Below are positions 11,220 to 17,196 of a stretch of 42,279 nt of DNA, piece by piece. Source of the DNA: Clostridia bacterium (GTDB taxonomy: Bacteria; Bacillota; Clostridia; RGIG7378); the NCBI GenBank assembly GCA_017501105.1, contig JAFVXO010000023.1, positions 1 through 42,279 of the forward strand. The letters run 5' to 3'. Position 1 is the first letter of the stretch; every line of letters starts with the position of its first letter. A program made the translations under genes and the position numbers. The notes below the pieces were generated by a model. That model searched no databases. It was not told the DNA's origin and worked only from the letters and a program-made list of their open reading frames with translations.

Positions 11220-12002
11220 TTACTTGTTTCTCCTGTTGGCCTTGGAGTACTTTATAAAAATCGGCAGGTAGAACAGGGCTATAATAGATATGGCCATGCC
11301 TGCAATGACCGAGAAATAGATGTACCAGTGGCCAATCTCCGTCAGAGGGATGTCGATGGGCGGGGTGTATGTAAAGTAGAAGTTGGTTGCATAATCCACG
11401 CTAACAAGCTGTCCGTCCACATATGTTGGGGTGGCAAACATGGAGTTAAAGTAGAGGGAAATGAAGGCCAGCGCACTCAGAAAACCAATTGTGGTCAAAT
11501 AATGCCTGGGCTTTAGCTCAAACTCTCCCGAGAAGGGGATATACATTCCCACTAAAATAAGCATAACATGGTACAAAAAGTACTGGTATGCCAATGGGTG
11601 CGTGAATGCCTGAGTCACATCTATGGTTGCTCCGAAAATGATGGGAATAAACAGGGCAAAGGCCGCTCCAACTCCGCAGGTGGGGTACATGAATGCCAGC
11701 AGATTCTCACGGAAACGACTGTCCTTGGCATATCTTGCAAAGAAAATAAACAGGATTTGCATGGAGCACAGGTGCAGGGGCAGCTGGGTCAGTTCCAGGT
11801 ATGGATACATCAGGCTGCCATCTGACGAAGGCATCATCTTGATAACGCTGAACACCTTGATTACCTCTGATGCAATGCATATGTAGCATGCAATATTCAG
11901 CACCTGACGCAATGGCGGCCTTTTCTTGAGCAAATAATACAGGCCTGCGCCAATCAGAGCAAAACAAATGATTAGCCAAATTATATGATTGGTCGAAAAC
12001 AT
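11220..12002 (-). CDS. YwaF-family integral membrane protein (TIGR02206-like)
   Basis: This 260-residue protein has six or seven membrane helices. It carries the family motif QLPLHLCSMQ (about residues 73-82) and a later FLYHVMLILVGMY, followed by a PPIDIPL element between the last helices. The fold is that of the YwaF/TMEM164 group. Human TMEM164 has been reported to be a cysteine-dependent acyltransferase; the Cys in HLCS and the later His here could be the equivalent pair, but that is inference. It lies between spmB (convergent) and rsmI, in the segment inserted into the otherwise conserved order, and has no visible link to its neighbours. Confidence 0.75.
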   Translation of the reverse strand: MFSTNHIIWLIICFALIGAGLYYLLKKRPPLRQVLNIACYICIASEVIKVFSVIKMMPSSDGSLMYPYLELTQLPLHLCSMQILFIFFARYAKDSRFRENLLAFMYPTCGVGAAFALFIPIIFGATIDVTQAFTHPLAYQYFLYHVMLILVGMYIPFSGEFELKPRHYLTTIGFLSALAFISLYFNSMFATPTYVDGQLVSVDYATNFYFTYTPPIDIPLTEIGHWYIYFSVIAGMAISIIALFYLPIFIKYSKANRRNK

Positions 12003-14120: not shown

Positions 14121-14990
14121 CTAATCTTCCAGTCCTTTGAGAGCTGCGGCATCGGCGGGGCGTTCCTCCTTGGATGAGCCACGCTTAATAACCTTTACCT
14201 CATCGGCCTTAAACACAATCTGGTCCCCGTCCGGCCTACCGTCAATTCGCACCTTCACCTGCTCCTTGAGCAAGTTGTTCTCGGTAACTACGCCGCGACC
14301 GCAATCTGTATCCACCAGAGATCCTACCTTGGGCACCCGGGCCAGCAGGTCCTCATAGGCCTCGGACTCGTACTTGAGGCAGCACATCAGTCTACCGCAT
14401 GTGCCGGATATCTTGGTGGGATTCAGGGACAAATCCTGCTCCTTGGCCATCTTGATGGAAACGGGATGAAAGTCATTCATATAGGAATGGCAACATACTT
14501 GTCTGCCGCAAATGCCCAATCCGCCCATCATCTTGGCCTCGTCTCTGACGCCGACCTGACGCAACTCGATGCGTGTCTTGAACACCGTGGCCAGGTCCTT
14601 GACCAGGTCCCTAAAGTCCACACGGCCGTCAGCTGTAAAGTAGAACAGTATCTTGCTGCTATCTAATGTATACTCTACATCGATTAGCTTCATCTCAATG
14701 CCACGGGAGATAATTTTCTCCTTGCAGATTCGGAAAGCCTCCTGCTCCTTAACTCTGTTAGCCTGGTAGTTGTCCATATCCTCCTGGGTGGCCTTGCGGA
14801 TAACCTGCCTCAGAGGCTGGGTAATACGGCTGTCGTCCATCTCAGTGGGGCCAAAAGTTATCTTGCCACACTCCATGCCGCGGGCAGTCTCAACCACACA
14901 GCTATCTCCTACCCTCAGCTCCAGCTGGCCAGGGTCAAAATAATAGGACTTGCCTGAATTTCTAAATCTAACTCCTACTACCGTTGTCAA
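14121..14990 (-). CDS. ricT: RicT (YaaT), PSP1-domain regulator of RNA processing
   Basis: RicT is one subunit of the Ric (Y) complex, which works with RNase Y in mRNA maturation and influences sporulation and competence in Bacillus subtilis. The 289-residue protein has the PSP1 C-terminal domain and the iron-sulfur-related cysteine motifs GICGRQVCCH (about 158-167) and GTCGRLMCC (about 195-203). The start is TTG at 14990, 7 nt after GAGAGGT, and it follows a good promoter. It sits after gatD and upstream of the ferredoxin. Other Ric subunits are not in the window, but RNase Y is encoded at 40136. Confidence 0.95.
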   Translation of the reverse strand: MTTVVGVRFRNSGKSYYFDPGQLELRVGDSCVVETARGMECGKITFGPTEMDDSRITQPLRQVIRKATQEDMDNYQANRVKEQEAFRICKEKIISRGIEMKLIDVEYTLDSSKILFYFTADGRVDFRDLVKDLATVFKTRIELRQVGVRDEAKMMGGLGICGRQVCCHSYMNDFHPVSIKMAKEQDLSLNPTKISGTCGRLMCCLKYESEAYEDLLARVPKVGSLVDTDCGRGVVTENNLLKEQVKVRIDGRPDGDQIVFKADEVKVIKRGSSKEERPADAAALKGLED

Positions 14991-15018: not shown

Positions 15019-15047
15019 ATTATAGCCTATCTTGATTCCTTGTGCAA
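15019..15047 (-). promoter_or_regulatory. Sigma-A promoter for ricT
   Basis: On the minus strand: TTGCAC (15042-15047), 17-bp spacer, TATAAT (15019-15024). It overlaps the last codons of gatD. Confidence 0.7.
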
Positions 15048-15800
15048 AATGCGGTTAATGCAGGACAAGCGGGCGATCTCCTCCGCAGTGGAATCCGGCA
15101 GCACTGCTATGGCTGCCTGGGCTGCGTCGTTTCCGTACTTGCGCTGTAGGGCACGGAGAATAAGCAGATCTGTAAGTCTGTAGTTCTTGGGCAACAAGCT
15201 GCCATGGAGATATGAGCCGAATATATTGCCATAGCACACTCCCTCGGTACCGTCCTGACCGTTGTTTCCCTGTCCCTGTATTACCTTGGCCAGTGGAGAC
15301 ACCCCGTTCCCCAGGAAGGTTTTACCCGAATGGCTCTCAAATCCCACAATATACGAATCTGTTGGCTCTGCTCCTTGGAGAGGAATGCAGTCACACACCA
15401 CGTTTCCAGGAATTCGGTCTGTACCGGCCTCTGTGCGCATGTCCAGAATTGACAATCCTGCCAGGGAATTGCCCTTGACGTCGGGATAGTACTCTCCCAA
15501 CATCTGATAACCGCTTGAAATCCCCAGAATTACGTTGCCCTCATTAGCAGCTGTCCGCAGGCCCTCTGCCTTGACCTGCATCATATCCTCATAGATGCTC
15601 TCGGTGTCCTGTCCTGCTCCCAGGAAGATAATGTCGTACTTGTCAGGTTCCAGAATATCCTGTCTGGACAGGTTGGTTACCTGGCAGGAAATATCCCTCC
15701 ACTGACACCTTCGCTCCAGGGCTATAACGTTGCCCTTGTCTCCATAGGTGTTCATCAGGTCGGGGTAGAGATGGCATATATTAAGAGTCATTGCACACAT
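15027..15800 (-). CDS. gatD: GatD-like glutamine amidotransferase lacking the catalytic cysteine
   Basis: GatD supplies ammonia to MurT for amidation of the D-glutamate of lipid II. The 257-residue protein keeps the family N-terminus (LNICHLYPDLMNTYGDKGN), the FLGAGQD motif (59-65) and the catalytic histidine in YLHG (H199). The nucleophile elbow reads GISSGYQ (93-99), where GatD proteins have an I-C-G-G-Y-Q elbow: serine 95 (codon at 15516-15518) replaces cysteine and serine 96 replaces glycine. Glutaminase activity is therefore doubtful. The rest of the frame is intact, arguing against decay. It starts right after murT (ATG at 15800; 15791 also possible). Confidence 0.88.
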   Translation of the reverse strand: MCAMTLNICHLYPDLMNTYGDKGNVIALERRCQWRDISCQVTNLSRQDILEPDKYDIIFLGAGQDTESIYEDMMQVKAEGLRTAANEGNVILGISSGYQMLGEYYPDVKGNSLAGLSILDMRTEAGTDRIPGNVVCDCIPLQGAEPTDSYIVGFESHSGKTFLGNGVSPLAKVIQGQGNNGQDGTEGVCYGNIFGSYLHGSLLPKNYRLTDLLILRALQRKYGNDAAQAAIAVLPDSTAEEIARLSCINRILHKESR

Positions 15801-15801
15801 G

Positions 15802-17196
15802 TTAATTCCAGAACTCCTTCATGTCGATTTTCTCCTGCAGAAAGCTGCGAACTGCCAACATGGCCGAGTAGGATGGCAGCACAACCAGTGTGCCTCCCTC
15901 CTCCATCTGCTCCAGAGCCCGCTGAACCACGATGGGAATGGAGCCTTCTCCATCCAGGGAATTGTCGTATACCACATCTGTGTCCAGTCCGGCATATTTA
16001 AGGCGTACCGCCATATCAGCGCCCCTGATGCCACAGGTGTATATAGCAGATAGGTTGTCCTTGATGGAGGACAAACATTCCAAATTAACATCCCACAACC
16101 AGGAAATGTCCTCTCCGTCGGAGATGTGATCGTTGACTGCAAAGCACAGTGTCATGGACTGATTAACGGAAATCAGGTAGTTAATTACCTGGTTAAGTCC
16201 CATGGAATTTTTTACCAAAATGGTACGGATAGCCTTGTTCCCAAAATGAACCGTTTCCATTCTGCCAAATCCGGGCTGGCTCTTGGACAATGCATGGTTG
16301 ATGTGATCTGGAGCTGCTCCTATGGCAAGCCCCATTCCGATAGCTCCCATGGCGTTGTAGATATTGAACAGACCGGACATATTGATGCTGCAGTTGTAGT
16401 TCTCCTGATCTACTCTGTAGCTGAAGGTGGCAGACTCCATAGTCAAGCTATATTCTGTCATTTCCACCTGAGGTGTGGGACGGCTGTATCCACACTGATT
16501 ACAGGCATAGCTGCCCAGGTGTCCGTAAGTGTTGTATGCGTAGTCCATTTTGGAATGGCAGTAGAGACAGTAACCTGCCTCATTCTCGCTATGGCTGGAA
16601 TCCACAATGTTACCATTGGAGTTGTCCATGCCGTAATAGATTGCGTTGTTTGGCAAATCCCTACCGATAGAGGCGCACAGCGGATCGTCGGCATTGAGCA
16701 CAAGTGTGGCGTTAACAGCCTTGGCCGCGCCGGTTTTGACCAGATTGAGTGTGGCAGTAACCTGACCGTATCTGTCCAGCTGGTCCTTAAAGAAGTTGGT
16801 GACCACCACCACTGCGGGATTGAGCTTGCCTGCCACCTTGGCAAAGGCTGCCTCGTCGCATTCGATAACTGCGTGGGTTGCTCCCTTGGATCGTCCCGAG
16901 ACCTTGACCCCCTCTGCAAAGCAGGCAACAATGCCTCGCTCCAGATTGGATCCCGACTTGTTGCTGATATATCTGACTCCCTGCTGCTCCAGTATGGATG
17001 ACATGAGCAGTCCCGTGGTGGTCTTGCCATTGGTGCCTGTGACCACATAGACCGTAAACTGGGATGCCAGCCTGGCCAAAATGTCAGGGCAAACCGACAG
17101 AGCCAGCTTGCCCGGAAGGGCTGTGGCTCCCCTGTGCATGGCTCGCAGCAGCCATGTTGTGACCTTACATATCCATAGGGCTAATAAGTATCTCAT
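15802..17196 (-). CDS. murT: Lipid II isoglutaminyl synthase subunit MurT
   Basis: MurT is the Mur-ligase-like subunit that amidates D-Glu in lipid II together with GatD. The 464-residue protein has an N-terminal hydrophobic start, the ATP-binding GTNGKTT (54-60), the NFFKDQLDRYG and NADDP motifs of Mur ligases, the MurT-specific four-cysteine zinc ribbon (CLYC and CNQC, about 209-233), and the C-terminal DUF1727 domain with SDGEDISWLWDVNLE, which carries the residues of the MurT active site. It is intact and normal in length. A sigma-A promoter lies upstream, divergent from the SpoVB-like gene. Confidence 0.95.
   Translation of the reverse strand: MRYLLALWICKVTTWLLRAMHRGATALPGKLALSVCPDILARLASQFTVYVVTGTNGKTTTGLLMSSILEQQGVRYISNKSGSNLERGIVACFAEGVKVSGRSKGATHAVIECDEAAFAKVAGKLNPAVVVVTNFFKDQLDRYGQVTATLNLVKTGAAKAVNATLVLNADDPLCASIGRDLPNNAIYYGMDNSNGNIVDSSHSENEAGYCLYCHSKMDYAYNTYGHLGSYACNQCGYSRPTPQVEMTEYSLTMESATFSYRVDQENYNCSINMSGLFNIYNAMGAIGMGLAIGAAPDHINHALSKSQPGFGRMETVHFGNKAIRTILVKNSMGLNQVINYLISVNQSMTLCFAVNDHISDGEDISWLWDVNLECLSSIKDNLSAIYTCGIRGADMAVRLKYAGLDTDVVYDNSLDGEGSIPIVVQRALEQMEEGGTLVVLPSYSAMLAVRSFLQEKIDMKEFWN

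Follow-up and report, generated by a model that had tools for sequence, protein, structure and literature searches.

Known MurT/GatD systems and an ammonia-dependent precedent

MurT/GatD is essential in Streptococcus pneumoniae and is an antibiotic target, and the glutaminase half is generally taken as part of how the complex works. For the pair from Staphylococcus aureus, a C94S mutation in GatD abolished glutamine-dependent amidation (PMC6113224). The C94G mutation left NH3-dependent lipid II amidation unaffected at pH 8.5, with GatD still needed, and this use of ammonia was seen at pH 8.5 only, not at pH 7.5 (PMC3266927). Human CPS1 has Ser294 in place of the cysteine and uses free ammonia as its donor (PMC4655335). 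In the open-access literature, we found no description of a natural GatD lacking the cysteine (Cys-less GatD) or of a bacterial Cys-less CarA; subscription journals may differ.

Identity of the murT-gatD locus

The stretch of DNA analyzed here (the window, 42,279 nucleotides of a Clostridia genome) carries murT one base upstream of gatD (Table 1). Pfam, a PDB sequence search, and the predicted fold all place the gatD product unambiguously in the GatD family. Its best PDB matches were the GatD proteins of S. pneumoniae, Streptococcus pyogenes, and S. aureus (E 3e-44), and its AlphaFold2 model (pLDDT 92) matched the MurT/GatD structures 9sq9, 6fqb, and 6gs2 with Z of about 30 to 33, compared to Z of 19 or less for other GATases. 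Against NCBIfam NF045636, it scored 189 bits, which is under the curated cut-off of 400 bits. Cys-less proteins from two other surveyed loci (L148 and L224) scored 155 and 222 bits, and the cut-off seems to have been chosen with near relatives of that family's named members in mind. The best PDB match of the neighboring ligase was MurT (E 8e-73). Elsewhere in the window, the product of positions 11220-12002 (minus strand) matched Pfam TMEM164 (78 bits), a family named from animal proteins.

Table 1. Features of the murT-gatD locus in the window and loci of the divergent clan
Feature	Position	Strand	Description
gatD	15027..15800	-	257-aa GatD-like subunit, predicted pseudo-glutaminase; Pfam GATase_3, 116 bits
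Ser95-Ser96 (TCA AGC)	15513..15518	-	Stands at the catalytic-cysteine and oxyanion-glycine positions (C94-G95 of S. aureus)
Ala62	15615..15617	-	Oxyanion-loop glycine position (S. aureus G60)
Ser156	15333..15335	-	Asn position of FENHSG
Arg129	15414..15416	-	Glutamine-binding Arg128 of S. aureus; kept; Lys in congener
His199	15204..15206	-	Catalytic His189 of S. aureus; kept
murT	15802..17196	-	464-aa Mur-ligase-like synthetase subunit; Pfam MurT_C and Mur_ligase_M
MurT Asp363 (GEDISW)	16108..16110	-	Counterpart of D349 in S. aureus (third residue of the GatD triad); kept
MurT zinc-ribbon cysteines (CLYC...CNQC)	16492..16569	-	Intact
MurT ATP-binding motif (GTNGKT)	17020..17037	-	Intact
PSP1/YaaT-like gene (presumed name)	14121..14990	-	Downstream of gatD; 89% identical to that of the congener
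Divergent clan loci	L032, L161, L163-L169, L171, L252-L254, L256-L260		GatD-like proteins with MurT-like neighbors

The glutaminase site of GatD

The initial annotation had read the nucleophile elbow as I-S-S-G-Y-Q, with serines in place of the catalytic cysteine and the following glycine. We confirmed both codons (TCA at 15518-15516 and AGC at 15515-15513 of the minus strand) within an uninterrupted open reading frame, and Ser95 and Ser96 aligned with S. aureus Cys94 and Gly95. Cysteine occupies the nucleophile position in 203 of 236 distinct GatD-like sequences. The annotation had further described the histidine of YLHG and the remainder of the protein as intact. This was borne out for His199, Arg129, and the lid residue Tyr19 (S. 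aureus Tyr17), and the port and interface residues Asn17-Thr18-Tyr19 and HGSLLPKN are also kept, but two other pocket positions have changed. Position 62, whose S. aureus counterpart G60 has a role in the oxyanion loop (PMC5871853), is glycine in all 203 Cys-bearing GatDs and in 8 of the 33 Cys-less ones; it is alanine in the window protein. Asn156, again found in 203/203 Cys-bearing GatDs, is serine here. Judged from these residues, the pocket is losing its glutaminase constraints together. No second intact GatD was found elsewhere in the genome, where HisH was the only other GATase_3 match.

Compared with the pairs of S. aureus, S. pneumoniae, and S. pyogenes, the window pair has the same adjacent genes and fold, the same GatD histidine, glutamine-binding arginine, and lid tyrosine, and the same MurT ligase motifs, zinc ribbon, and third-triad aspartate. 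Unlike those GatDs, the window protein is without the catalytic cysteine, has both oxyanion glycines and Asn156 replaced, and is predicted not to hydrolyze glutamine.

We considered whether Ser95 could act as an alternative nucleophile in a Ser-His-Asp triad with His199 and MurT Asp363, so that glutamine or another amide would still be hydrolyzed. Such a triad would fit the retention of His199, Asp363, and Arg129 and the conservation of serine at this exact site in the genus. However, the C94S mutant of S. aureus has no activity, both oxyanion glycines are replaced in the window protein, most Cys-less lineages other than the window genus have glycine or alanine rather than serine at this position, and CarA of the same genome has lost both its cysteine and its histidine. 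That Gly62, Asn156, and the cysteine site changed together also argues against a swapped-in serine nucleophile. Thus, the different nucleophile proposed in the initial annotation is disfavored, and we regard it as quite improbable.

Conservation of the Ser-Ser elbow in a congener

The sole same-genus genome compared was that of the Clostridia MAG RGIG7378 from water buffalo cecum (the congener). Its GatD carries the same I-S-S-G elbow with identical codons (TCA AGC), has serine at position 156, and retains Gly62. Since these codons are shared at 56% protein identity with synonymous sites saturated, error and chance are excluded, and we rejected a sequencing or assembly error as the source of Ser95-Ser96. 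HisH of the window genome retains GICLG, so its assembly is not generally at fault. The Ser-Ser pair is therefore conserved in this relative; C-G at these codons occurs in other genera but not inside the genus (one congener compared).

The order murT-gatD-PSP1 is common to both genomes; the name of the third gene is one we presume from general knowledge. GatD is less conserved between the two species than MurT (67% identity) or the PSP1 gene (89%), as would be expected of a decaying pair in which the glutaminase was lost first and amidation had become dispensable. Against such decay, neither frame is interrupted in either species, gatD has a dN/dS of roughly 0.15 (dS saturated), and the catalytic motifs of MurT are complete, which together make this a most improbable explanation.

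The MurT partner and a divergent clan

MurT retains the GTNGKT P-loop, the four zinc cysteines, the DQLDRYG loop, and the third-triad Asp363. The initial annotation had noted that it looks fully functional, which the intact ligase motifs support.

A divergent clan in Clostridia resembles the window pair in combining a Cys-less GatD-like protein with a MurT-like ligase. The elbow of these GatD-like proteins is mostly TGN[AS], and their catalytic histidine is lost. The MurT-like motifs are mostly GSNGKT/ESDER/DQMTRNG/TSETSW, without the canonical aspartate context, and CarA is intact in 5 of 5 clan genomes. Given the different MurT motifs and the intact CarAs, we rejected the clan as an instance of the same phenomenon. 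Its motifs suggest a separate branch within the MurT/GatD family, one for which we found no description in the literature searched.

The clan does show how far the pair can depart from its canonical form. This would be in keeping with a changed substrate or role for the window pair, e.g., amidation of another cell-wall carboxyl or a ligase that does not amidate and is regulated by GatD. However, the window MurT lies outside the clan, carries canonical motifs, and scored 249 bits to S. pyogenes MurT. A changed role is for these reasons unlikely.

A putative ammonia-driven MurT

The S. aureus C94S protein is dead with glutamine, while MurT with C94G GatD amidates with ammonia. A natural Cys-less GatD beside a MurT with intact motifs would thus most likely be the structural subunit of a ligase driven by ammonia. 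Our preferred reading, which we hold to be likely though by no means assured, is that the window GatD is a pseudo-glutaminase serving as the structural partner and ammonia port of an ammonia-driven MurT acting on lipid II, and that it is part of a partial shift from glutamine to ammonia shared with CarA. GatD without glutaminase activity would still fold and pair with MurT. MurT would use ATP to phosphorylate the alpha-carboxylate of the lipid II D-Glu, and would accept free ammonia from the cytoplasm, with GatD as an obligatory structural partner and ammonia port. Among the three options of the initial annotation (ammonia, another nucleophile, or a changed role), free ammonia is the best, being supported by conservation in the congener, the MurT motifs, the mutant biochemistry, and the parallel loss in CarA.

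The S. aureus C94G mutant is like the window GatD in being Cys-less and, in vitro, still allows MurT to amidate lipid II with NH3. That mutant is artificial, whereas the loss described here is natural and common to two species of a genus. In vertebrate CPS1, as here, a class I GATase has serine in place of the cysteine and a change in the next residue (human Ser294-Thr295). The window pair has the sequence and fold features that would be expected of a CPS1-like pseudo-GATase: the cysteine nucleophile is lost, the fold is conserved, and the motifs of the synthetase partner are intact. CPS1 differs in being eukaryotic, with another synthetase, another product, and an allosteric activator, of which we saw no sign here.

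The ammonia could instead come from a separate glutaminase or a transporter-linked protein that feeds the port of the pseudo-GatD, rather than from the bulk cytoplasm. The retained port and interface residues would suit such a supplier, but no candidate partner lies beside murT-gatD in the neighborhoods of the window or the congener, and we find this source very doubtful.

CarA and other glutaminases of the genome

The CarA of the window genome (L261:931-2049, on contig G000:C109) has GIGMG and RPEGAPG at the positions of GICLG and HPE in relatives, and it adjoins a full-length CarB of 1059 aa. CarA of the congener (L280/L298) has AIGMG and RPEG and has also lost both cysteine and histidine. 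MurT/GatD and carbamoyl-phosphate synthase probably both run on free ammonia, like CPS1, the mammalian enzyme of the urea cycle. The organism would then have partly replaced glutamine by free ammonia as its nitrogen donor, with the CarA lacking cysteine and histidine as part of the same shift. PurF and HisH retain their cysteines in both genomes, so glutamine is still used elsewhere and the shift would be partial; on the same grounds, we rejected the idea that the genome has lost every glutaminase.

The PF00117 class I glutaminases of the window genome were CarA and HisH, plus a below-cut-off match inside an NAD-kinase-like frame. In the congener, the GMP synthetase (GuaA; L265:1495-2475) is 326 aa long and lacks the N-terminal GATase domain; besides CarA and HisH, PF00117 found no free-standing protein there that could be its GATase partner. 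CTP synthase (PF06418) was not found in either of the two genomes, whose completeness is rated at 100% and 96%. The sole class II GATase matching PF13522 was PurF, so GlmS was not seen in either. For a MAG as fragmented as this (126 contigs), the missing PyrG, GlmS, and GuaA are weaker evidence than a residue change, and our preferred reading does not lean on them.

Cys-less GatD and CarA across Clostridia

We surveyed GatD in up to 391 Clostridia genomes and read CarA in 96 loci. Outside the divergent clan, Cys-less GatD was found in the window genome and its congener (ISSG), G015 (IGGG), G102 and G172 (IGSG/VGTG), G118, G197, G032, and family f44. A GatD tree made without the motif columns required at least 7 changes between Cys and Cys-less labels, and well-supported branches force 5 of these. 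On this tree, Cys-less GatD arose several times in Clostridia, and a single Cys-less clade was rejected.

With the clan excluded, only Cys-less CarA was present in all nine genomes with Cys-less GatD (9/9) versus 7/63 with Cys-bearing GatD (Fisher p 1.3e-7). By family, the counts were 4/4 versus 4/30 (Fisher p 0.0015). Phylogenetically independent pairs numbered 3 on well-supported branches, with an average of 2.7 changing the same way and 0 the opposite way (sign-test p 0.25). The association between the two genes is strong but, with so few independent pairs, not yet proven free of shared ancestry. It is also one-sided, given the 7 genomes with Cys-less CarA and Cys-bearing GatD. In total, 22 surveyed Clostridia genomes have a Cys-less CarA, 5 of which also have a second, intact CarA.

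It is possible, although we are somewhat more doubtful than confident, that several Clostridia lineages moved, each on its own, from glutamine to free ammonia in part of their amide-nitrogen chemistry and lost the glutaminase sites of GatD and CarA in the same genomes (the GuaA GATase part is missing in the congener). If so, cell-wall amidation and carbamoyl phosphate synthesis would depend directly on ambient ammonia. The link with Cys-less CarA makes such a nitrogen-donor shift testable across genomes. In natural pseudo-GatDs, the glutaminase would be seen to be separable from the MurT/GatD complex. Such proteins would also serve as enzymes for testing roles of GatD beyond ammonia production and would suggest that gut anaerobes have a cell wall coupled to ammonia.

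Individual loci of the survey varied in context. In G015, the IGGG GatD lies with a full MurT on a 248-kb contig, and a second, Cys-bearing pair lies on a 15-kb contig. The Cys-less GatD of VGGG type at L030 (G032:C186) is interrupted by a TAA in frame shortly before the lid region and is either a pseudogene or a MAG error. At L224 and L246 (G102 and G172), the Cys-less GatD adjoins purD, with no murT adjacent. The MurT beside the IGGG GatD of G015 (L384:10696-12420) carries a repeat-rich insertion of T-V-K-D-K-T-G-E-like units before the zinc ribbon.
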